Below are positions 12,217-35,635 of a DNA stretch of 35,854 nt, one piece after another. The stretch covers positions 1-35,854 of the forward strand of contig JAIPBL010000064.1 of the NCBI GenBank assembly GCA_021739645.1. Direction: 5' to 3'. The notes beneath the pieces were generated by a model. That model did no database searches. It saw only the letters and a list, made by a program, of their open reading frames with translations, and was not told the origin of the DNA. Within the stretch, counting starts at the first letter, position 1, and every line of letters starts with the position of its first letter. This DNA is from Saprospiraceae bacterium (lineage in GTDB: Bacteria; Bacteroidota; Bacteroidia; Chitinophagales; Saprospiraceae). Both the position numbers and the translations under genes were made by a program.

Positions 12217-15200
12217 TCAGTTGCGATACTCGCTCGGCGCTTTCCCAAATTCCTTGTGAAAAGCCCTCGAAAAATAATTCGGGTCATTGAAACCGACCGA
12301 GTAGGCAATTTCGGAGATGTTCAGTTCGGTGCTTTCGAGCATTTCCTTGGCCCTGTGCAGGCGTATTTTTCGGATGAAAGCATTGGGAGGCTCGCCCGTG
12401 AGGGCATTCATTTTTCGGTATAGCTGCGATTGGCTCAGGTGGACGGCACGGCTGAGTTCTTCAGCGCCGAGGTCAGCCTTGTCGAGGTGCTCCATGACCG
12501 TGTTTTGGAGCTTCTGGAGGAAGCGGTCGTCGAGGGTGGGTTCGGCAGGAGAGGGCGCAGAAATGACATTTTTTGAAAAAATGTCATTTCTCATCCCGGC
12601 ATATCGCAATTGCAGCGCCCGCCGCAGTTCCAGCAGTTTTTCCAGCCGCACGTACAGCTCCTCCTTGTTGAACGGCTTCATCAAATAGGCATCGGCCCCT
12701 TTGCGAAGGCCCGTGATGCGGTCGGAGGCTTCCGCCTTTGCCGTCAGCAAGATGATGGGGATGTGGCTGGTGCGCTCGTCGTGCTTCAGCGTTTCACAAA
12801 CTTCGTAGCCGTCCTTTTCCGGCATCATCACATCGCTGATGATGATATCGGGGATGATTTCAAAAGCCTTCTCGATGCCGACTTGCCCATTGGGCGCCGT
12901 GGTAATGTCGTATTCCTTTTCCAACAAGCCAACGATGTAAGTGACCACATCTGCGTTGTCCTCGATAACCAGTAGCACCGGTTTTTCAGTGACCAAAACT
13001 TCCGTTTCGTCAGTCGGCGCTGCAACAATAGGGGCTGGCAGATCAGGCACCAGTTCCGGGGCGAGGCTGCGGGAAGAGGGGAACTCGGTCTGCGGCAGCG
13101 GGGTATTTGCCTCCAACCTGATGGGCAACAGCAAAGTGAAGTTCGTTCCTTTCCCAGCGGTGCTTTCCACCGAAATACTACCACCCATCAGCTCCACCAA
13201 TTCTTTGGTCAGTGCCAGGCCGATACCTGTGCCCTCGCCCTTTCGGGTGCTGGAATTGTCGGCCTGAAAGAAGCGGTCAAAGATATGCTTCACCTGGTCT
13301 TGTGGGATGCCAACGCCCGTGTCCTGTACTTTCAGTTTCAAAAATGGTTGCCCGTTTCGCTCGGTTTGGTTGGCGTGCAGCACGACTTTGCCGCCCGCTT
13401 CGGTGAACTTGATGGCGTTCGACAGCAGGTTGTACACCACATGCTGGATTTTTACTTCGTCAAAGTCCATGACCAGTTCCGGTATCTCGGAATAGAAGGT
13501 CAGGCGCACCTTTTTCTCGTGGGCCATGGAGTGGAACGACTCGGTCAGGTATTGCAGGTAGTTGATAATATCGCCCTGCACGACGTCCATTTTCATGGTG
13601 CCAGAGTCGAGCTTGGAGAGGTCGAGCAACTGGTTGATGAGGCGGAGCAGGTTCTTGCTGTTGCGGCGGATGAGCTTCCGCTCGTTCTCGTGCCCACGGA
13701 TATTTTCAATCATGCCCATGATGACCGTGAGCGGCGTGCGGAACTCGTGGGTGATGTTGGTGTAGAGGCGGGACTTGAGGGCATCGAGTTCTTGCAGGCG
13801 CAATGCCTCGGCGTTGATGGATTGGCGACGCAGTTCAAAACGACGAATGCCGAAAAGTATGCCTCCGGCAGCAAGCACATAGAAAAGGTATGCCCACCAA
13901 GTACGGTACCAGGGCGGCAGAACAATCATTTCGATAGAAGCCTCCGCCGTACACCACACGCCCGTTGCCGTTTTAGCCTTTACCTGAAAAGTGTATTTGC
14001 CGGGGTCAATATTCGTGTAATGCGTTTCCTGTGCGCTTCCCGCCGACTGCCATTCCGACTGGTAGGGCAGCAGCCGATAGTAGTAGGTTGTCCCTTCCGG
14101 TTTATAAAAAACAGGCATGGCAAAGCTGAACCCGAAGTTGTTCCGACTGAACGGAAGGGTGAGGGAAGGGGTGTAGCGTAGCATTTTTTGCAAGATGCTA
14201 TCCGCTGCCCCAACGGTTACGGCTTGGTGGTTTTGAAAAAAATCGAGCAGGTAAACCGAGGCAGTGTAGTCACGTGCTGGAAGACTGTCTGGGTGAAACC
14301 GGAAGCTGTTTTCACCCATAAAAAAATACAGCCAGCCATCGTCGTCCCGACAACCGTGCTGCTCATCCACGAACTCGCCCGGCAGTCCGTCGTATTCATC
14401 GTAATTGGTGAACGTGCCCGTTTTCAAATCCAACTTTTGCAGGCCCAGTGCTGTGCCAATCCAAGGGTTGCCGTTGGCATCTTCCACCACGGTATTCACC
14501 ACATCGTGCAGCAGCCCGTTTTGTTGGTTGTAGGTATTGAAACGGTCATTGGCAGGGTCGTAAACGGCTAGTCCGTTGGTGGTGGTGAGGTACATGTTTC
14601 GGCCTCCGCCTTTGTACATCAATTGGCAGACAACGGTCGGCAAGCTGTGCGGGTCGGTGGGGTCGTGGCGATATACTTTGTGCTGTTTTGTTTCCAAATT
14701 ATAGTTGTAAACTCCCCCGGTCGTGGAGACCCAGATGCTTTTGCCTTCATCGTGGATGATGTCTTGGAAATAGGACATGGAAGCAATAAAGCCGGGAATG
14801 TTTTTTTGCATTTCGGGAAATGCATCTACCCACTTGTTGGCCTGTTCGTCAAAGTATAGGAGGTTGTCCCAAATCCTCCCGCCAGCCATTCGCAAATTGG
14901 AGCTGGTACGGCCTTCGGGGAGCAGCCTGATTTTTCCCGTTTTTTGGTTGTACAATTTTGGTATGCTGCGGTCTCCTTCGGAAATGAGGATTTCCTCGGT
15001 GCTGAACCTGACCAACTTGGGGCCTATCCCTTTCAGCGGGCCAATGGGCAGGCCGCCCGGTGTCAGTTTTTTTGTTTGGGTGTCAAAAGTAAAAACACCT
15101 TCATTAGACCAGGCGACCACCTTGTTTTTCTTCAAAGGAAATAGCTGTATGACTGGCATTTGGGCAATCATTTCAAAAGGATTGCTGAGGTCATGCGCCA

Positions 15201-16266
15201 CTGCCACACCATCGCCACGAGTGATGAGCCACAGGCTGCCCGCCCGGTCTTTGGCCATGCAGGGTATCATGGTTGACGGTATGCTGTTTGGGTTTTTATC
15301 ATCTTGCAGGTAAATGGTTTTTGAGCCATCTGCCGGGTTCCAGCGCCACAGTTCGCCATCTGCGCCGATCCATATTTTCCCGTTTTCATCGGCTAAAAAA
15401 GAGTAAGGGACTTTAGTGTTTTTAAAATGGAAATCCTGTGTCAGATCCCTGAAAGTCTCGGCAACGGGGTCAAACTCCCAAAACCCCTCGAATGATGAAG
15501 TGAGCAGAAATTTGCCATTGGGCATTTCAACTTGGTCCTGCACTACCCTGAAACGCCAGTCATTTGGCACATTGGGAGCATGTTGGATGAGTTTTGGGGT
15601 TCCGTTTGGCAGCACTCTGTACAAGCCGTCCGTTACCCCCAACCATACAGTGCCATTCTTTTGCTGGTAAAAATGATGGCCGTCCTTCAAGTTGCCCACC
15701 CGTTCAAACTGTCCGGTCTTCTTCACCCATCGGCAGAAGCCATTGAAGCGGGTACCAATCCAGATGTTGCCGTCCTTGTCTTTGTTGAAAGTGTTCATGC
15801 CATGGCCGCACATACCCGCCTCCTCACTGCCCACATGTTCGAAAGCCTCTGTCTCCGGGTCGAAAATGTAGAGGCCCTCATCTGCCGTGCCCGCCCAGAT
15901 TTTACCATCATCCGCTTCGACTAATCCGACCGTCCAATTATTGCCAATGCTATGCGGGTTGAGCGGGTCGTAGCGGAAGTTTTTGAACGAAATGCCATCG
16001 AAACGGCTGATGCCGTGGTGGGTGGAAAACCACATGAATCCTTCCTTGTCCTGAAGGATAACCTCCCTGCTGCCCGTGCCGGAGTTTACCAACCCGTCCT
16101 TGATGCCATAGTGCCGAAAATGAAGTTGCTGGCTAAACAGCGGATTCGTGAAAAAGAGAAACATTACCGACAAAAATAAGCAGCTACCAAGCCGAAATTC
16201 GGCTTGCAAATAGTACAAGGATAAGGTAGCGTATCGTGTAATGCAGTTTCTCATCTGAACATTCAA
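12217..16266 (-). CDS. Hybrid two-component system protein (HTCS): sensor kinase, receiver and AraC-type DNA-binding domain
   Basis: One 1,349-residue chain carries a full signalling pathway. After a signal sequence (ending near LFSQ, residue 46) come two-component-regulator propeller repeats (about 50-690: WFSTHHGISRFDG, IWIGT, WIGTALGLQ), a Y_Y_Y domain (about 705-785), one transmembrane helix (about 790-810), a HisKA domain with THEFRTPLTV (H near 836), a HATPase domain (DTGVGIP, GTGIGLALTKELV), a receiver (about 1090-1205, phosphoacceptor Asp in ISDVMMP) and an AraC-type helix-turn-helix (about 1255-1349: SQLYRKMNALTGEPPNAFIR, ISEIAYSVGFNDPNYFSRAF). The sensor faces the periplasm. HTCS proteins usually control glycan-use loci, but none is adjacent; the nearest candidate target is the repeat/phospholipase gene downstream. 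A start at 16254 is also possible. Confidence 0.93.
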   Translation of the reverse strand: MNVQMRNCITRYATLSLYYLQAEFRLGSCLFLSVMFLFFTNPLFSQQLHFRHYGIKDGLVNSGTGSREVILQDKEGFMWFSTHHGISRFDGISFKNFRYDPLNPHSIGNNWTVGLVEADDGKIWAGTADEGLYIFDPETEAFEHVGSEEAGMCGHGMNTFNKDKDGNIWIGTRFNGFCRWVKKTGQFERVGNLKDGHHFYQQKNGTVWLGVTDGLYRVLPNGTPKLIQHAPNVPNDWRFRVVQDQVEMPNGKFLLTSSFEGFWEFDPVAETFRDLTQDFHFKNTKVPYSFLADENGKIWIGADGELWRWNPADGSKTIYLQDDKNPNSIPSTMIPCMAKDRAGSLWLITRGDGVAVAHDLSNPFEMIAQMPVIQLFPLKKNKVVAWSNEGVFTFDTQTKKLTPGGLPIGPLKGIGPKLVRFSTEEILISEGDRSIPKLYNQKTGKIRLLPEGRTSSNLRMAGGRIWDNLLYFDEQANKWVDAFPEMQKNIPGFIASMSYFQDIIHDEGKSIWVSTTGGVYNYNLETKQHKVYRHDPTDPHSLPTVVCQLMYKGGGRNMYLTTTNGLAVYDPANDRFNTYNQQNGLLHDVVNTVVEDANGNPWIGTALGLQKLDLKTGTFTNYDEYDGLPGEFVDEQHGCRDDDGWLYFFMGENSFRFHPDSLPARDYTASVYLLDFFQNHQAVTVGAADSILQKMLRYTPSLTLPFSRNNFGFSFAMPVFYKPEGTTYYYRLLPYQSEWQSAGSAQETHYTNIDPGKYTFQVKAKTATGVWCTAEASIEMIVLPPWYRTWWAYLFYVLAAGGILFGIRRFELRRQSINAEALRLQELDALKSRLYTNITHEFRTPLTVIMGMIENIRGHENERKLIRRNSKNLLRLINQLLDLSKLDSGTMKMDVVQGDIINYLQYLTESFHSMAHEKKVRLTFYSEIPELVMDFDEVKIQHVVYNLLSNAIKFTEAGGKVVLHANQTERNGQPFLKLKVQDTGVGIPQDQVKHIFDRFFQADNSSTRKGEGTGIGLALTKELVELMGGSISVESTAGKGTNFTLLLPIRLEANTPLPQTEFPSSRSLAPELVPDLPAPIVAAPTDETEVLVTEKPVLLVIEDNADVVTYIVGLLEKEYDITTAPNGQVGIEKAFEIIPDIIISDVMMPEKDGYEVCETLKHDERTSHIPIILLTAKAEASDRITGLRKGADAYLMKPFNKEELYVRLEKLLELRRALQLRYAGMRNDIFSKNVISAPSPAEPTLDDRFLQKLQNTVMEHLDKADLGAEELSRAVHLSQSQLYRKMNALTGEPPNAFIRKIRLHRAKEMLESTELNISEIAYSVGFNDPNYFSRAFHKEFGKAPSEYRN
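12559..12591. repeat. Perfect 33-base palindrome inside the HTCS coding sequence
   Basis: The 16-base arm AGAAATGACATTTTTT (12559-12574) and its exact reverse complement (12576-12591) flank one central base. It encodes the short stretch around NDIFSKNVIS (about residues 1225-1236), in the linker between the receiver and the DNA-binding domain. Confidence 0.85.
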
Positions 16267-16292
16267 GGAATTGCTTTAAGTATGTTCTAAGC

Positions 16293-16300
16293 CAAAGGTA
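16293..16300 (-). promoter_or_regulatory. Candidate -7 element for the HTCS gene
   Basis: The minus strand reads TACCTTTG, matching TAnnTTTG, 27 bases upstream of the start at 16266. It sits in the 253-base gap between the HTCS gene and the divergent sigma-factor operon. No clear -33 element. Confidence 0.45.
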
Positions 16301-16519
16301 GTGAAATGTTGCTTTTGAGTCGGGAGGATTTTTGATGCTGTGCCCCCCTTTGTTTAACCCACGCCCTTGCCCAGTCTTGAGGGGTTATGGCAAAACGCTG
16401 TGTTCCTCCTTGCAACCTTTCCACTAAAATGACCACCTGCAAAAAAGCATCTTTGCACCGCACCAAAACATTTCGTAGGCCCGCTTCCGTAGAGGGCTTT
16501 GTCGTAAACAAGAACCTGC

Positions 16520-17053
16520 ATGCCTGTCACAATTTCATTTGAAGAAATATACGAGGCGCATAAAAACATGGCCTTCAACCTATGCCTGAACTACCTGCAA
16601 AACCAACAGGAGGCAGAGGAGGCAGCACAGGATGTATTCGTAAAAGTGCATGAAAAACGGGCGGGATTTCAGGAACAATCAAGTCTGAAAACCTGGATTT
16701 ACCGCATCACGGTGAACCACTGCCTCGATGTGCTGAAGGCCAAAAAGCGGCAAAAGCGCTTTGCTTTTATCACCAGTATTTTCGGTGATGATGGTGCAAC
16801 ATTGCATGACCCATCTCATTTCGACCATCCCGGTGTGCAGCTCGAAGACCGGGAAGCGCTGGCCAGCTTGTACCAAAAAATAGATGGATTGCCGGATGCG
16901 CAAAAAACGGCGCTCCTCCTGAAATACCTCGACGACCTGTCCCAAAAGGAAATTGCCGACATCATGCAACTGCCCGTCAAGGCCGTGGAATCGCTGTTGC
17001 AACGTGGCAAGCAAAACTTGGAAAAAAAACTGAACAGCCCCGAAGGATTTTGA
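16520..17053 (+). CDS. ECF-type RNA polymerase sigma factor
   Basis: The 177-residue length is typical of an ECF sigma factor. Region 2 covers about residues 5-75, with the acidic helix NQQEAEEAAQDVFVKVHEK and the promoter-melting segment SLKTWIYRITVNHCLDVLKA. Region 4 covers about 120-170 (LPDAQKTALLLKYLDDLSQK, then EIADIMQLPVKAVESLLQR), a helix-turn-helix for the -35 element. It heads a five-gene operon (16520-19500) and is divergent from the HTCS gene. ECF factors are normally held by an anti-sigma factor encoded next to them; the 93-residue membrane protein that follows fits that place. Confidence 0.93.
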   Translation: MPVTISFEEIYEAHKNMAFNLCLNYLQNQQEAEEAAQDVFVKVHEKRAGFQEQSSLKTWIYRITVNHCLDVLKAKKRQKRFAFITSIFGDDGATLHDPSHFDHPGVQLEDREALASLYQKIDGLPDAQKTALLLKYLDDLSQKEIADIMQLPVKAVESLLQRGKQNLEKKLNSPEGF

Positions 17054-17078
17054 ACCAATTGTCGTCAAACCCAACGAA

Positions 17079-17360
17079 ATGATGAAACAGTACCAAAATA
17101 TCGAACAACTGAAGAAGGTCCGCAAAGTGGATGCGCCGCCTTTCTTGCTGACGAGGATTCACGCCAAAATAAGGGCCAGTAAGGTGGAGCAGTTACCCCT
17201 TTCGTGGAGATGGGCAGGTGGTTTGGCCTTTGGTCTGATGCTCTGTTTAAATTTGTTGGCGGTCAAAATGAACCACCAAGCCACGGGTCAACCCGATGGG
17301 ATAGAAGCCCTCGCAGATGGCCTCCAAATGACCAACGCAAATCAATTGTACCATGAATAA
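17079..17360 (+). CDS. Small single-pass membrane protein, candidate anti-sigma factor
   Basis: This 93-residue protein has a cytoplasmic, basic N-terminal part with a PPFLLTRIHAKI stretch (about residues 20-31), one transmembrane helix (about 45-63) and a short outer tail. The topology and its place 25 bases after the ECF sigma gene suggest an anti-sigma or sigma-associated role. It lacks the HxxxCxxC zinc motif and is too small for a full anti-sigma domain plus sensor. Its last eight bases overlap the next gene, indicating translational coupling. The start could be one codon later (MKQYQ..). Confidence 0.7.
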   Translation: MMKQYQNIEQLKKVRKVDAPPFLLTRIHAKIRASKVEQLPLSWRWAGGLAFGLMLCLNLLAVKMNHQATGQPDGIEALADGLQMTNANQLYHE

Positions 17361-17799
17361 GATCAAATTCTTGACTATTTCGGTGATTGCCCTCGTTGTG
17401 CTCAACCTCGTGACGGTTGCATTTTTTTGGATGAAAAGGCCGCCTCGTCCTATGCAGAAAGGTCCAAAAAAAATCATCGTCGAGCGCCTTCACTTCGATG
17501 CGCAGCAAGTGACGGCTTATGACAAACTCATTGCGGAACACCAACAAGCCATCGCTGCAAAATCACAAGAGATGGGCGAAGCCAAGAAAGTGCTTTTCGC
17601 TTTGCTAAAGGGCGATGATTTTTCAAAAAAGGATTCCTTGATTAGTGTCATCGGGCAGGTGCAGCAGCAGATAGAAGCAACTCATTTTCAGCATTTCATG
17701 AGCATCAAGGAGCTGTGCAAAGACGAGCAATTACAGGCGTTTAAAGACTTATCTTCTGACCTGGCCAAATACTTTGCACCACCACCCAAAGGTAAATGA
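17353..17799 (+). CDS. Membrane-anchored Spy/CpxP-like periplasmic protein
   Basis: The 148-residue protein has an N-terminal hydrophobic anchor (about 5-24), a proline-rich basic stretch (MKRPPRPMQKGPKK) and then an all-helical domain (about 40-140) with glutamine-rich helices (AEHQQAIAAKSQEMGEAKK) and a late FKDLSSDLAKYF helix. This fits the heavy-metal sensor/chaperone group (Spy, CpxP, ZraP, CnrX). No histidine-rich metal site stands out. It overlaps both neighbours (8 bases before, 4 after). In the operon it is the natural periplasmic signal sensor, perhaps with the preceding small protein. Confidence 0.72.
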   Translation: MNKIKFLTISVIALVVLNLVTVAFFWMKRPPRPMQKGPKKIIVERLHFDAQQVTAYDKLIAEHQQAIAAKSQEMGEAKKVLFALLKGDDFSKKDSLISVIGQVQQQIEATHFQHFMSIKELCKDEQLQAFKDLSSDLAKYFAPPPKGK

Positions 17800-18509
17800 A
17801 GTATCATTTGAAAATATCCATGGCCATACTTTTAGCAGGGCTTTTTTTGCTGCATACGCCGCTTTTTGCGCAGCAAAATCCACAAGAAATCGTACTGCAT
17901 ATAAATCCCATATTGAATGGAAAATCTTCCAATGATGGATTGATTATTAGTCAATTAAATGGCGACTCCATTGCCATACACACCCTCCGTTTTTACCTCA
18001 GTAATTTCGTTTTTTATAAAAACGGAAAGGAAATAGGACGAGAAAAGGACAGCTACCATTTGCTGGATATGGAGGATGAATCTACCTTGTCCATAGCCAT
18101 AAACCCCAATACCGGCGATGGTCTTGGCGCCATCCGCTTCGACCTCGGCACAGACAGCCTGACCAACGTTTCCGGTGCCATGGGTGGCGACCTCGACCCC
18201 GCCAATGGCATGTACTGGGCATGGAACAGTGGCTATATCAATTTTAAAATAGAGGGATATTATGAAAAATGCCCGACCCGAAACCACCAGTTCCAGTTTC
18301 ATATCGGTGGCTATTTGCCGCCGTTTAAAACGGTGCAAACCATTGAATTAACTGGTTTAAATAAGCGTGAAATATGGGTGGATATGGAACTGTCCGTTTT
18401 TTTTGAACATATAGATTTGGCAAAAGAGCACAGCATTATGTCGCCCTCCAAGGCAGCGGCAAACCTAGCGCAATTGCTGTCCAAAACCTTTCGCATACAT
18501 GGGGAATAA
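17796..18509 (+). CDS. MbnP-like periplasmic protein
   Basis: The 237-residue protein starts with a signal peptide (to about LFAQ, residue 26). The mature part matches the MbnP-like family: an IVLHINPILNGK opening, LRFYLSNFVFYKNGKEI (about 64-80), YHLLDMED (about 87-94), and the signature GGDLDPANGMYWAWNSGYIN (130-149) with Trp141 and Trp143. In characterised MbnP, a tryptophan is oxidised to kynurenine by the di-haem enzyme MbnH, producing a copper-binding site. The next gene here, overlapping by 11 bases, encodes such a di-haem protein. Which tryptophan would be modified cannot be told from sequence alone. Confidence 0.85.
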   Translation: MKYHLKISMAILLAGLFLLHTPLFAQQNPQEIVLHINPILNGKSSNDGLIISQLNGDSIAIHTLRFYLSNFVFYKNGKEIGREKDSYHLLDMEDESTLSIAINPNTGDGLGAIRFDLGTDSLTNVSGAMGGDLDPANGMYWAWNSGYINFKIEGYYEKCPTRNHQFQFHIGGYLPPFKTVQTIELTGLNKREIWVDMELSVFFEHIDLAKEHSIMSPSKAAANLAQLLSKTFRIHGE

Positions 18510-19500
18510 ACTGCCACTGGCTGTCCTGTTTTTAGGCATTTTAGGCATGGTGCTCGTTGCCGCCGTGTCGGCATATTCCCCCGAGCCTGTAGCGTTGAAA
18601 TATCCAGAAAGCTGGCCAACTCCCACCTATGATTTCACCAAAAATCCACTTACCAAACAAGGCATTGAGCTTGGTAGGCGGCTGTTCTATGACCCCATTT
18701 TGTCCAAAGACAGCACCATCTCGTGCAGCAGTTGCCACCTGTCCTACACCGCTTTCACGCACGTTGACCACGACCTGAGCCACGGCATCGCCGACCGCAT
18801 CGGCACCCGCAATTCCCCGGTACTGATGAACCTGGCCTGGGTCAGCAGTTTCATGTGGGATGGTGCGGTGAACCACCTGGATATGCAGGCGTTGGCGCCG
18901 ATTTCGAGTCCGGTGGAAATGGATGAAACCATTGAAAACGTGGTGAAAAAAGTGCAGCGCAGCAGCCCATATCCGTCCCTGTTCTACCATGCCTTTGGCG
19001 ATAGCACGGTGACCGGTGAGCATTTGCTGAAAGCGATGGCGCAGTTTGAACTGACGCTCGTGAGCGCCAACTCAAAATATGACCAAGTGAAACGTGGGGA
19101 GGCGGCATTTACCGGGCAGGAAAACAATGGTTATATGTTGTTCCAAAAAAACTGCGCCCGCTGCCATGCCGAGCCGTTTTTTACCAATCATGACTTTGAA
19201 AAAAACGGCTTGCCGCTCGACACGACGCTGCATGATTTTGGCCGGATGGTCATCACTCAACTGCCTACCGACTCGCTGAAATTCAAAGTGCCGACACTGC
19301 GTAATATCGAATTTTCCTACCCGTATATGCACGATGGCCGCTTTCGGAAATTGGGCGATGTTATGAAACATTATACCCAATCCAGCCAATTGAATATCGA
19401 ACTGAGCTCCAATGAAAAGGTGGATTTGACGGCGTTTTTGCTGACGCTGACGGATAAGGAGTTTCTGTTCAATCCCGATTTTGCTTTTCCTCGAAATTAG
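18499..19500 (+). CDS. Di-haem cytochrome c peroxidase-like enzyme (MbnH/MauG family)
   Basis: The 333-residue exported protein has an N-terminal membrane/signal segment (about 5-25) and two c-type haem motifs, CSSCH (76-80) and CARCH (219-223), at the spacing of the CcpA/MauG/MbnH superfamily. Other family features include LGRRLFYDPILSKD before haem 1, RNSPVLMNLAW (about 104-114), FMWDGAVNHLD (about 118-128), and a late VPTLRNIEFSYPYMHDGRF stretch. Members either reduce hydrogen peroxide or oxidise tryptophan on a partner protein. The adjacent MbnP-like gene makes the MbnH-type role more likely. It is the last gene of the ECF operon. Confidence 0.88.
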   Translation: MGNKLPLAVLFLGILGMVLVAAVSAYSPEPVALKYPESWPTPTYDFTKNPLTKQGIELGRRLFYDPILSKDSTISCSSCHLSYTAFTHVDHDLSHGIADRIGTRNSPVLMNLAWVSSFMWDGAVNHLDMQALAPISSPVEMDETIENVVKKVQRSSPYPSLFYHAFGDSTVTGEHLLKAMAQFELTLVSANSKYDQVKRGEAAFTGQENNGYMLFQKNCARCHAEPFFTNHDFEKNGLPLDTTLHDFGRMVITQLPTDSLKFKVPTLRNIEFSYPYMHDGRFRKLGDVMKHYTQSSQLNIELSSNEKVDLTAFLLTLTDKEFLFNPDFAFPRN

Positions 19501-19565: not shown

Positions 19566-19579
19566 CCTCATGAATGAGG
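19566..19579. repeat. Short inverted repeat before the uronate operon
   Basis: CCTCAT-GA-ATGAGG forms a 6-base stem just upstream of the SDR gene start at 19601. It could be a leader hairpin or a fragment of a dispersed palindrome; no T-run follows. Confidence 0.4.
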
Positions 19580-19600
19580 TACTCAGCTAAAAGCAAAATA

Positions 19601-20416
19601 ATGGACACCTTATTTAATTTAAAAAACAAAGTAGCTGTCATCACCGGAGGCTCTGGCATTCTTTGCGGTGCAATTGCCAAAGCCATGGCCGAGCGAGGTG
19701 CTAAAGTGGCCATCCTCGGCAGGACACCCGCCAAGGTGCAGGCGATGGTCGCAGCAATCGAAGCGGCAGGCGGCGAGGCACTCCCGCTAGTAGCCGATGT
19801 GCTCGATGCAGTGGCATTGCAGGCTGCCTGTGACACCGTGCTGGCGAAATGGAGGAGGATTGATATCCTCATCAATGGGGCAGGCGGCAATATTCCCGGC
19901 GCTGCCATTCCGCCGGAGGACAATTTTTTCAACCACCCTTTCGAAAACCTGCAAAAGGTATTTACCCTGAATTTCGACGGCACGGTGCTGCCCTCCATGA
20001 TTTTTGGCAAACCGATGGCTGAGGCCAAATCCGGCAGCATCATCAACATCTCCTCCATGACGGCGCAGCAGGCCGTGACCCGTGTGCCTGGCTACTCAAC
20101 GGCCAAGGCAGCGGTGGACTGTTTCACCAAATGGCTGGCGGTGGAGGTGGCGCTCAAGTTCGGCGACGGTGTCCGGGTGAACGCCATCGCTCCCGGTTTT
20201 TTCATCACCGAACAAAACCGGCGACTGCTGACCAACGAGGATGGCAGTTTCACTGACCGTGGAAACTCGGTCATCCGCAAAACGCCGACCCGGCGCTTTG
20301 GCGAACCGGAAGAATTGATTGGCACAGCGGTCTGGCTTGCTTCGGATGCTTCTAAATTCGTGACTGGCACGGTGATTCCCGTGGATGGTGGGTTTAGTGC
20401 TTGGAGCGGGGTGTAG
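19601..20416 (+). CDS. uxuB: SDR-family fructuronate reductase (D-mannonate oxidoreductase)
   Basis: I start at MDTLFNLKNKVAVITGGSGI (19601); the frame is open 9 codons further but that part is not SDR-like. The 271-residue protein is a classical short-chain dehydrogenase: TGGSGILCG cofactor loop (about 14-22), INGAGG, and the catalytic pair in VPGYSTAKAA (Tyr and Lys four apart). The C-terminal RKTPTRRFGEPEELIGTAVW and VDGGFSAWSGV are typical of the SDR enzymes acting on D-mannonate/fructuronate, as in Bacillus-type UxuB rather than the long-chain E. coli enzyme. The neighbouring glucuronate isomerase supports this: it would reduce the isomerase product fructuronate to mannonate using NAD(P)H. 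Confidence 0.82.
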   Translation: MDTLFNLKNKVAVITGGSGILCGAIAKAMAERGAKVAILGRTPAKVQAMVAAIEAAGGEALPLVADVLDAVALQAACDTVLAKWRRIDILINGAGGNIPGAAIPPEDNFFNHPFENLQKVFTLNFDGTVLPSMIFGKPMAEAKSGSIINISSMTAQQAVTRVPGYSTAKAAVDCFTKWLAVEVALKFGDGVRVNAIAPGFFITEQNRRLLTNEDGSFTDRGNSVIRKTPTRRFGEPEELIGTAVWLASDASKFVTGTVIPVDGGFSAWSGV

Positions 20417-31365: not shown

Positions 31366-32902
31366 ATGAAAAATAGAATGATAACCCCCCATGCATTATT
31401 TGCAGCCAACCAAACTTTATCCTTGCATTATTAGTGATGCTTTTTTCAAGCAATTACAACTTTGCACAAAGCGGCTTAACCTACCCAATCGTCGATACCG
31501 ACCAGACAGCATTTTTTGGCAACGTGACAAGCATTTCTGAACCCGTTGCCGGAGCAGCTTTTTACGGGCAGGATGCCCAGCATGCCGGATACCAACCTTC
31601 GTACACCGACAACGGCGACGGAACGGTCACCGACAATGTCACCGGGCTAATGTGGCAGCAATCGCTCGACCATAACGGCGATGGCGAAATTGATTATGCC
31701 GATAAATTAATTTATGCTGAAATATTGGCACTCCCCGGCACCGTGACCACCGGGGGTTATACCGATTGGCGGGTGCCGACCATTAAGGAGCAATACTCAC
31801 TCATATTGTTCAGCGGTCGGGACATCAGTGGTTATAATGGAACCACTACCGATGGTTTAATCCCTTTTATTGACGACGATGTTTTTGCATTCAATTATGG
31901 AGACCTCGATGCTGGGGAACGTTTGATTGATGTGCAATGCGCCTCCACAAATGTCTATGTCGGAAGTTCAATCGGGGAAATGGTCTTCGGGGTCAACTTT
32001 GCCGATGGCCGTATCAAAGGGTATGGGACGACTGTCATGGGGCAAGATAAATTGTTCAATTACCTGTTGGTGCGGGGCGACACGGATTATGGGGTCAACA
32101 ATTTCACCGGCAATGGCGACGGACCATTACCGATGCCGCCACCGGATTGACATGGATGAAGAACGACAACGGAGAGGGCGTACTCTGGGCAGATGCGCTG
32201 AGTTATGCCGAGGGGTTTGAGCTCGCCGGACATTCGGATTGGCGTTTGCCCAATGCCAAGGAATTGCAAAGCATTTTGGATTATACCCGTTCACCTTCTA
32301 CCTCCAATTCGGCAGCCATTGACGCACTTTTTAACAGTACGGAAATTACCAATGAATTTGGACAGGCAGATTATCCTTATTACTGGAGCAGCACCGCACA
32401 TGCAACTTGGGTAGAAGACCATGATGGCGCATGGGGCGTTTACGTTGCTTTTGGCCGTGCGTTGGGTTATGACCAAATGTCACCAAATCCCACATGGAGA
32501 GATGTCCATGGTGCAGGCTCACAACGCAGCGACCCAAAAGTTGGCGACCCCGGAGAATTTCCAACAGGTCATGGCCCTCAGGGTGATGCTGTTCGGATTT
32601 ATAATTATGTGCGACTGGTGCGGGGCGGGGAGACCACCACAGCGTTGAATGATTTGAGTTTCAAAGAATACAATTTTAACGTTTATCCCAATCCTGCTCA
32701 AAGTGAAATTACCGTTTCTGCGGAGGTGGAATTGACGACCGTTTCCATTTACAATTTGTCGGCACAAAAAGTTATGACACAGTATCCGAATCAAAAAGAG
32801 GCTACCATAAATATTGGCCATCTTGCCAATGGGATGTATTTCGTTAAGGCCATTGCAAAAGACGAAAGTATTGTCATGCAGAAAATAATTGTGGAGAGAT
32901 AA
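31366..32902 (+). pseudogene. DUF1566-domain secreted protein with T9SS tail, broken by two frameshifts
   Basis: Three frame segments join into one sensible protein. Segment 1 starts at ATG 31366 (MKNRMITP). One missing base in the C6 run (31385-31390) would connect it to the frame encoding FILALLVMLFSSNYNFAQ, completing a signal peptide. Segment 2 runs to 32150 with DUF1566/Lcl-type motifs (GDGTVTDNVTGLMWQQSLD, GGYTDWRVPTIKEQYSLI). It breaks near 32122: adding one base there gives GDG-TITDAATGLTWMK and leads into segment 3 (AGHSDWRLPNAKELQSILDY, then a sorting tail with VYPNPAQSEI). Both shifts are single-base losses, so sequencing undercalls are as likely as a true pseudogene. DUF1566 proteins are usually exported; function unknown. 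Confidence 0.8.
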
Positions 32903-33691: not shown

Positions 33692-35635
33692 TCATCTTGG
33701 TTTCTTTGATGTTTCTTTCATTCGATTTAGAAAATCAGAGTGTTGTTCTATAAAATATCTTTCACTTGGAATATCAACAACATCAAGTGCTAAATTTAAA
33801 TCTCTTTCTGCCTCTCCTAACAACTCCCTGCACATTTCCCATGCTCTTGCTTTAGTCTTTTGGGAGCTATTCCAATCTTTTCCTGTATTAATGCATTTCT
33901 TTGCTAAGTCCATTTTCGAGGTTGCTCTTTTTTCTAAAAGAGTAGGATTATTGGCTAATTTAGGATACTTATTCATTGCTTCGCTAATAAATTTAATCAC
34001 TTCATCAGGAGTACCTAATTTTTTTAAACTTATCGCTGCTTTTACGATTTGTCCCTCTTCTAACCGACCAGACAAGGCAATATCTAAAGTTCTATTAGAA
34101 AATTCTTGAATTGCTTTATCCTTTTTTTCAAGCGACAAAGCCTCGGATATGTTTAATAGAGTATTTGAATTGATTGCATATAGGTCAATTTTATTTTTAG
34201 TTAAGAAAGAATATAGCACTTTAGCTTCTTTAAGTTTTGTAACAACTTCTACCAATAAATCTAAAGCTCTAAAATTATAAGGGTCTTTTTCGAGTAGAAT
34301 TATTAGTTTGCTTTCCGCTTCTTGATAATTTTCAAGAATGATTCTATCTTGAATTTCTTGGAGTTCTCGAATTATTTGATGTCTTGGATGAGCAGGAAGA
34401 ATACAAGTAACACTTTCCGTTTCTAATTCAAAGATAGGGTCTGGACATCCTTCCTCTTTCATTGTTCTTATGATTGTGGGAATACCTTGTCCTTCAGACT
34501 GTGCCAATTGAATTTTATTAAATAAATATGCAAAACTTTGGTTTCTCCATTTCGGGCTTGATTTACCTTCTTTAAACTTTTCTTTATTGACAGCCCAATG
34601 TAAAGCGCCAGGTGAACGCACCTCTATCCTATCCGCAAAAACTGTTATTCTATTAGGTTCTGCAATTTCATAATCTCTATGCACTATTGCATTGATAACA
34701 GCCTCTTGGAGTGCTCTTATAGGGTATTTTACCTGATTAGGTTTATCGTTTAGCTTATCAAAAGCAACATAAGCTTCAGCATTTAACAACTCAATTGATT
34801 TCTTAGCTTGTTCTATTAATGTTCCAGTAAGCAGGTGTCTTTCAGCTGTAGGTTCGCTTCTATCTTTTCCTCTGTAAATTGACAGAATGGTATATGATTC
34901 TGGGTAAAAGCGTGTTATACTGGTCTTTTTGCCAAATATTAACAATGTGAAATTTTTAGGCTTCAAACTATTATCTAATCCAACTCTATCAAATAGAGGA
35001 GGCACAAATTCTGCAATCTGTTCTTTTTCAGAAAAATAATCTTCAAGGGATTTATCAGGAGAAAGGAGTCCCATTTCCTGCATATAGTCTCTAAAAATCA
35101 AAACATCTATATCTGCTTCGGAGGCTCGTGTATTTATCCTTTTATCGAAATATTCAATATTTTGCTTTTTAATTAATAGTTGGGTGAGAATTCCATTTCT
35201 CGCTTCTTTAGTATCACTTGCAATTCTAACATAATACAAAGATTTTTCTCCGTCTCTATATGTATGTGCATCAGGACTTGCAATTATTGTGAATACCAAT
35301 ATCCGTGTTGAGGCATCCTCTGGATTTTCTAATTCTGTAACTAACGGATTTATTGACGGGCTTACGTTATCTCTACATTGTTGTGTTACCTTACCTGTGA
35401 TTTCTTTGACTTTATCTGCTGTCAAGCCTGTATAAAATACCTTAGGAAAACCATGTTCATCTTTTCCTTCTTTTGCACCGCATATAACATACCCACCTCC
35501 CACATTTGCAATGTCATTAGCAAAAGCTGAGATAGTTCTTACTATACTTTTAACTACATCTTTATCATCACCATTTTCTTTCCACTCAACTCTTTCACTT
35601 TCCCTAACTGATAATTCTTTTAAATCTATATTCAT
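33692..35635 (-). CDS. AlbA_2 (Schlafen-like) protein with HATPase_c_4-type domain and helical C-terminus
   Basis: The 647-residue protein opens with an AlbA_2/Schlafen-type domain (about residues 10-150: ESERVEWKEN, ISAFANDIANVGGGYVICGA, YYVRIASDTKEARNG). The middle (about 290-415) matches the GHKL-like domain found behind AlbA_2 in the RecG-like/transcriptional-regulator group: PIRALQEAVINAIVHRDYE, ITVFADRIEVRSPGALHW, QSEGQGIPTIIRTMKEEGC. The last 230 residues are helical, TPR-like, and unassigned. Base composition is clearly more AT-rich than the rest of the window and codon choice favours A/T, suggesting horizontal transfer. Such proteins occur in defence islands and as regulators; the role here is not known. 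Confidence 0.85.
   Translation of the reverse strand: MNIDLKELSVRESERVEWKENGDDKDVVKSIVRTISAFANDIANVGGGYVICGAKEGKDEHGFPKVFYTGLTADKVKEITGKVTQQCRDNVSPSINPLVTELENPEDASTRILVFTIIASPDAHTYRDGEKSLYYVRIASDTKEARNGILTQLLIKKQNIEYFDKRINTRASEADIDVLIFRDYMQEMGLLSPDKSLEDYFSEKEQIAEFVPPLFDRVGLDNSLKPKNFTLLIFGKKTSITRFYPESYTILSIYRGKDRSEPTAERHLLTGTLIEQAKKSIELLNAEAYVAFDKLNDKPNQVKYPIRALQEAVINAIVHRDYEIAEPNRITVFADRIEVRSPGALHWAVNKEKFKEGKSSPKWRNQSFAYLFNKIQLAQSEGQGIPTIIRTMKEEGCPDPIFELETESVTCILPAHPRHQIIRELQEIQDRIILENYQEAESKLIILLEKDPYNFRALDLLVEVVTKLKEAKVLYSFLTKNKIDLYAINSNTLLNISEALSLEKKDKAIQEFSNRTLDIALSGRLEEGQIVKAAISLKKLGTPDEVIKFISEAMNKYPKLANNPTLLEKRATSKMDLAKKCINTGKDWNSSQKTKARAWEMCRELLGEAERDLNLALDVVDIPSERYFIEQHSDFLNRMKETSKKPR

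Follow-up and report, generated by a model that had tools for sequence, protein, structure and literature searches.

The closest described relatives of the operon reported here are the protein pair MbnP/MbnH and the regulatory trio CnrYXH. A 2021 study reportedly found kynurenine in MbnP and MbnH oxidising a tryptophan of MbnP. According to a 2013 methanobactin survey, the pair occurs far outside methanobactin producers, and some isolated pairs lie near TonB transporters with MbnI/MbnR of the FecI/FecR type (PMC3621798). In methanotrophs, CorA/CorB and MopE/SACCP likewise have a kynurenine-site copper protein beside a di-haem peroxidase-like protein (PMC3912023), although MopE/CorA show, as that survey puts it, no marked sequence similarity to MbnP (PMC3621798). 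CnrYXH, from plasmid pMOL28 of Cupriavidus metallidurans, responds to nickel and cobalt, and its CnrY is described as a small membrane anti-sigma factor of a class other than that with the zinc motif (PMC7406223, PMC7689651). In a 35,854-nucleotide stretch of a Saprospiraceae genome (assembly GCA_021739645.1, contig JAIPBL010000064.1, positions 1 to 35,854; the window below), we found a five-gene operon that probably joins a CnrYXH-like switch to an MbnP/MbnH output unit. Its features are as follows (aa, amino acids; ECF, extracytoplasmic function).

16520..17053, + strand: ECF sigma factor, 177 aa, with Pfam Sigma70_r2 and r4_2; proposed role of CnrH
17079..17360, + strand: 93-aa single-helix membrane protein with Asn58 in the membrane helix; candidate anti-sigma factor, proposed role of CnrY
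17353..17799, + strand: 148-aa membrane-anchored periplasmic helical protein with Asn18, His63, His114, Cys122 and Gln126; candidate sensor, proposed role of CnrX
17796..18509, + strand: MbnP-like protein, 237 aa, Pfam PF20243, with Trp141 and Trp143 (WxW) and His169
18499..19500, + strand: MbnH-like di-haem enzyme, 333 aa, CCP_MauG, with C76-C79-H80, C219-C222-H223 and Tyr292
16267..16519, no strand: upstream intergenic stretch, the expected place of the operon promoter; no site recognised

A sequence-only reading of the window had already proposed these five genes, with overlaps of 8, 4 and 11 bases among the last four and an MbnP/MbnH-like pair at the end. Checking the open reading frames of the window, we recovered all five at the same positions and on the same strand; a 25-base gap separates the genes for the sigma factor and the 93-aa protein, and the overlaps follow as described.

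The assignment of the pair was borne out by family, fold and residues. The MbnP-like protein matched PF20243 (E 1.6e-36; 126.4 bits, cut-off 27) and shares the fold of solved MbnP; the structure 7l6g came from the fold search only, as single-sequence and profile searches of the PDB gave no match for this protein. The last protein matched CCP_MauG (E 2.5e-52), and its two CxxCH motifs mark it as di-haem. Relatives were collected by a contig scan with the window MbnP, which returned 45 loci (an uneven sample, being retrieved through that protein), and genes were then called by one profile per protein. The best relative by MbnP, L009, is a Saprospiraceae metagenome-assembled genome with 62% identity. 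Alignments A1 to A4 contain 27, 25, 29 and 23 chosen rows, window protein included, with short and near-identical members of the 45 loci omitted. Trp141 and Trp143 were invariant in the 29 rows of the MbnP alignment (A3), which answers the question, raised by the sequence-only reading, of whether the modified tryptophan is absent. In the larger tree set described below, WxW was present in 46/46 MbnP rows linked to a sensor gene and in 36/39 other rows, 4 unjudged rows being left uncounted.

In the MbnH alignment, C76-C79-H80, C219-C222-H223 and Tyr292 were each invariant in 23/23 rows. Tyr292 aligns with a tyrosine of 6e1c, where the peroxidases 3o5c and 1iqc carry methionine; we take this column to be the distal (sixth) ligand place of one haem. 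With the family profile the best PDB match was 6e1c, 'Di-heme enzyme' (E 3.8e-64), whereas with the single sequence ten peroxidase chains ranked above it (1iqc, E 5.9e-45; 6e1c, E 4.2e-36) and the best entry for MauG, likewise a di-haem enzyme, reached E 5.7e-24. MauG acts on the tryptophans of methylamine dehydrogenase, whereas the presumed substrate of the window enzyme is MbnP. It is likely that MbnH modifies MbnP; as a MauG-type enzyme it would oxidise Trp141 or Trp143 to a copper-binding kynurenine.

Compared with the MbnP/MbnH pairs described from Methylosinus trichosporium and elsewhere, the window pair thus has the same families, fold, WxW, MauG-type tyrosine and gene pairing. It differs in missing the NCBIfam cut-offs (28.2 bits against the equivalog cut-off of 140 for TIGR04052; 201.9 against 362.85 for TIGR04039) and in its genome. 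The source genome (6.16 Mb, 147 contigs, 99.7% complete) gave 0 matches to MbnB (PF05114), so that the earlier statement of no methanobactin genes holds for MbnB, the other methanobactin genes not having been sought. The same genome has five further MbnP-family matches (L176-L180); among the four of them in the tree, L177, L178 and L179 are without WxW.

As for the genes upstream of the pair, the sigma factor and CnrH share 24% identity across 170 columns (pairwise E 1e-13). The 93-aa protein, whose single-helix topology was read from sequence, belongs to no Pfam or NCBIfam family, and neither profile comparison nor PDB search gave a significant match to CnrY; very low mutual sequence similarity is reported between anti-sigma classes (PMC7406223). 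The zinc motif of class I anti-sigma factors, HxxxCxxC, is absent from the window protein, and neither it nor CxxC occurs in any of 84 small proteins of related loci, in agreement with the earlier reading. That reading had further suggested a possibly new sensing arrangement; this is unsupported, because CnrY, also small, membrane-bound and without the zinc motif, precedes it and the third protein resembles CnrX. The small protein, being without a Pfam family, does not provide a FecR-domain (PF04773) partner, and the arrangement differs in this from MbnI/MbnR (FecI/FecR) as described in the 2013 survey (PMC3621798).

For the 148-aa protein, a single-sequence PDB search returned only weak matches to unrelated chains, and the match to Metal_resist (PF13801) was weak (E 0.025, under the family cut-off). 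Profile comparison gave CnrX at E 3.4e-4 and full-length NccX at E 0.0053, and the fold of the protein agrees with that of CnrX, with CnrX at ranks 2-12 in Foldseek and at ranks 1-8 in a structural second look. In the latter, CnrX and NccX scored above Spy and CpxP; the protein is Spy-like, as the sequence-only reading had it, but nearer CnrX than Spy or CpxP. The trio shares with CnrYXH and NccX the adjacent genes for an ECF sigma factor, a small membrane protein (CnrY 94 aa, here 93 aa) and a membrane-anchored periplasmic sensor of similar fold (148 aa in both). It differs in gene order (cnrY-cnrX-cnrH against sigma-small-sensor), in the missing sequence similarity to CnrY, in the metal ligands and in output: CnrYXH drives a resistance-nodulation-division efflux pump, whereas the output genes within the window operon encode MbnP and MbnH.

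Conserved residues indicate where the switch may act. Among 94 sensor-like proteins, close relatives kept, Asn18 and Gln126 were each present in 93, His63 and Cys122 each in 82, and His114 in 76, with tyrosine in 11. The nickel/cobalt ligands of CnrX, presumably His42, His46, Glu63 and His119, are mostly lost; only the place of His119 stays histidine (His114). The place of CnrX Met123, reported as required for signalling (PMC7689651), is Ile118 in the window protein and Val, Leu or Ile in 92/94. In the small protein, the Asn58 column is asparagine in 77/84, close relatives again kept, and, as aligned, in CnrY also; asparagines so conserved in both membrane helices suggest that the two helices pair.

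The putative sensing site varies with what is encoded downstream. With output classes assigned by a first profile for the YHYH domain, a frequent sixth-gene product treated below, Cys122 was found in 47/50 proteins with MbnP, 7/7 with YHYH only and 28/37 with neither, and His63 in 46/50, 6/7 and 30/37, respectively. These counts place the strongest His63/Cys122 site in loci with MbnP or YHYH outputs. The weaker Cys122 in loci with neither output, the Foldseek order and the hhalign probability slightly lowered our confidence in a CnrYXH-like switch and in the reading as a whole.

The trio could instead be an envelope-stress or redox switch, in which a Spy/CpxP-like 148-aa protein is titrated by misfolded periplasmic protein or by Cys122 oxidation and MbnH removes peroxide. 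We regard this as unlikely: CnrX and NccX outscore Spy and CpxP, Tyr292 is of the MauG/MbnH type and not the peroxidase methionine, His63 and His114 are kept alongside Cys122, and MbnP belongs to a metal-protein family, as YHYH does according to one prediction (PMC7824862).

We propose that the switch works like CnrYXH, a mode of action that we consider fairly likely. The 93-aa protein would tether the ECF sigma factor to the membrane, and the 148-aa protein would pair with it there, both helices having a conserved asparagine. Its signal is most likely a metal ion; this may be copper, with His63, His114 and Cys122 as the binding residues. On meeting the signal, the 148-aa protein would free the sigma factor, and the released sigma factor would transcribe the operon. 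Copper itself as the sensed signal is possible, somewhat short of probable.

The sequence-only reading had suggested searching for the same five-gene order in other genomes. A locus was judged if it showed the trio or had 1,700 or more bases upstream, which left 38 of the 45, the other 7 being too short; 29 of the 38 had all five genes in order. Two more (L027, L047) had the first four genes and then a contig edge, and 7/38 lacked the trio (L010, L011, L012, L023, L038, L044, L051). In two Flavobacteriaceae with the complete order (L020, L045), MbnP and MbnH are separated by an insertion of about 2.4 kb. In L034, one of the loci too short to judge, an inverted trio lies beside an MbnP close to that of Flavobacteriales L029 on a contig labelled Polynucleobacter; this is probably contamination or misassembly.

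An even sample, 149 genomes of the host's order, contained PF20243 in 129, a sensor-like protein (E 0.001 or better, some matches weak) in 60 and YHYH in 79. Sixty sensor loci were fetched, excluding the window's own, one with E 8.2e-13, one with E 4.9e-11 and matches weaker than E 1e-8, and were classed by genes on the sensor's strand up to 6 kb downstream. The trio was followed by MbnP and MbnH in 16 (with YHYH too in 14), by YHYH without MbnP/MbnH in 6 (L123, L125, L133, L138, L140, L147), by a MauG-like protein in 2 and by none of MbnP, MbnH and YHYH, as detected by the profiles used, in 27. In 7 others the sigma factor and sensor were present and the small protein was not recognised; the last 2 have a contig edge at or close to their start, and one of these has MbnP, MbnH and YHYH. 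Since it is found with other outputs, the trio is a module. In L115 and L119 the trio precedes genes for an unassigned 270-272 aa protein and a 444 aa MauG-like protein, which may be a further modifying enzyme and the substrate it acts on. In L165 and L173 the genes after the sensor encode calcineurin-like phosphoesterases that carry type IX secretion tails (by Pfam for L165, by eye for L173).

To place these associations on a phylogeny, we labelled a tree of 89 MbnP proteins by an upstream sensor gene, not the full trio (46 rows labelled; L009 represents the window MbnP; midpoint root for drawing only). One 52-row group with support 100/98 held 44 of the 46 labelled rows, along with four rows without the trio and four that could not be judged. 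The other two, L054 and L058, fell in a second group of 7, where L061, L062 and L070 are unlabelled owing to short stretches and represent the same places as the trio-bearing L130, L144 and L134; further short stretches in the tree may conceal a trio. The tree suggests that the link between trio and MbnP is old and for the most part inherited, but that it also arose anew at least once or was lost repeatedly.

These data bear on whether an ordinary MbnP/MbnH pair merely came to lie downstream of an unrelated sigma cassette by chance. The pair occurs without the trio in 7/38 loci and the trio without MbnP, MbnH or YHYH in 27/60, as such a history would allow; the genes overlap in the window, however, the order is kept in 29/38 loci, and 44/46 sensor-linked rows form one well-supported group. 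Because relatives keep the gene order, we consider the operon more than a chance arrangement, which is very improbable.

The proposed five-gene operon thus stands in its order, but most relatives have a sixth gene, YHYH, that the window lacks: no YHYH gene follows MbnH there, and the single one of the source genome is on contig C58. Among 38 loci that extend 1 kb or more beyond MbnH, a domain profile built here placed YHYH after MbnH in 32, in 31 of these at 90 bases or less or with a 4-base overlap. The 32nd, L041, is reached only across an assembly gap; an apparent MbnH-YHYH fusion there was rejected, as the joint frame crosses this stretch of N. Among five-gene loci with room, 24/26 had YHYH, the exceptions being L009 and L021. 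Pfam PF14240 was confirmed in 7/10 output proteins scanned, including the genes after MbnH in L118 and L126, whose products each carry a type IX secretion tail, and both histidines of the YHxH stretch were invariant in 12 aligned proteins.

Our first YHYH profile included that tail, and counts were redone with the domain alone. The gene after MbnH was never among the seven matches dropped, which lay in L165 and L173 (two each) and in L020, L045 and L144 (one each); L173 left the YHYH class and 32/38 was unchanged. A window frame at 32147-32902 was likewise rejected as YHYH, its match being to the secretion tail only. YHYH was commoner in genomes with a sensor-like protein (47/60 against 32/89; Fisher p 3.6e-7, relatedness ignored), and it is undercounted in the sensor loci, as L158 and L167 have divergent YHYH genes after the sensor. 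For YHYH domains, a zinc site is predicted in a survey of jumbo phages (PMC7824862); in a diatom paper YHYH figures as a list entry (PMC11992049). YHYH is likely a third member of the MbnP/MbnH unit. In most relatives this protein, usually secreted and a predicted metal binder, would be a third output. On pMOL28 (L184 22905-23027), a 41-codon His-rich frame annotated 'YHYH domain-containing protein' adjoins cnrY, with no relation to PF14240 shown.

If copper is the signal, the switch might fire when copper is scarce, MbnP and YHYH capturing the metal like copper-repressed CorA/MopE. CorA and CorB are reported to be made at low copper, CorA binding Cu(I) at its kynurenine site (PMC3912023), and all sensor-linked MbnP rows keep WxW; CnrX-type sensors, in contrast, are described as turning on upon metal binding (PMC7689651), and the genes flanking the window operon are not copper uptake genes:

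12217-16266, opposite strand: left neighbour, large hybrid two-component gene
19574-20416: right neighbour, short-chain dehydrogenase

A starvation switch seems rather doubtful to us. CorA/CorB and MopE are copper-repressed in methanotrophs (PMC3912023); as the analogous CorA/CorB are made under scarce copper, the window operon may respond either to copper excess or to copper hunger. Also rather doubtful is a Bacteroidota regulon for copper handling: a CnrYXH-like switch, sensing through a new His-His-Cys site, would control MbnP, MbnH and a surface-exported YHYH serving as second MbnH substrate or as copper acceptor from MbnP.

Self-regulation, also proposed earlier, was approached through 91 stretches upstream of the sigma gene. 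GCAA-CATC with a spacing of 16-21 occurred in 21 of them against 2.35 in shuffles, the spacing being exactly 17 in 19/27 dyads, and a matrix from 14 sites detected 18 of the 77 other stretches (shuffle p <=0.034, 30 shuffles each); the training sites come from the same upstream set with many close relatives, and the counts overstate independence. About 59/91 stretches show no motif, and two relaxed promoter patterns matched 2/91 and 7/91. As the sites stand directly before the sigma gene, they suggest autoregulation in those relatives. The motif is not obviously the same as the ECF promoter motif reported for F. psychrophilum, which has a CGT box (PMC9723704). Upstream of the window operon (16120-16519) the weight matrix did not find it (best p 0.245), nor for L009 (0.605), L014 (0.675) or the YHYH gene of the source genome (0.75). 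A consensus scan of the + strand gave no sigma-70-like site, and dyad search, weight matrices and alignment with L009 gave nothing significant. By analogy with the related operons, and by that only because the motif was not found, self-regulation of the window operon is plausible.

The operon combines known parts in an arrangement without earlier description among the matches listed, judged by titles, most subscription journals being outside the search. The ECF link in itself has a precedent, because the 2013 survey saw FecI-type ECF factors near some pairs (PMC3621798). What MbnP/MbnH do in bacteria that make no methanobactin could be approached directly through a sigma switch in the same operon, as its trigger would tell the purpose of the pair; the recurring YHYH gene indicates a third partner missing from that survey's description of the pair (PMC3621798), and the trio would represent a CnrYXH-like design in Bacteroidota serving several outputs.

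Elsewhere in the window, overlapping frames at 31434-32150 and 32147-32902 both encode an Lcl C-terminal domain, and the second also encodes a type IX tail; they are either tandem genes or a single gene split by a frameshift. Positions 33692-35635 encode a protein that combines a Schlafen AlbA_2 domain and a RecG-like C-terminal domain.

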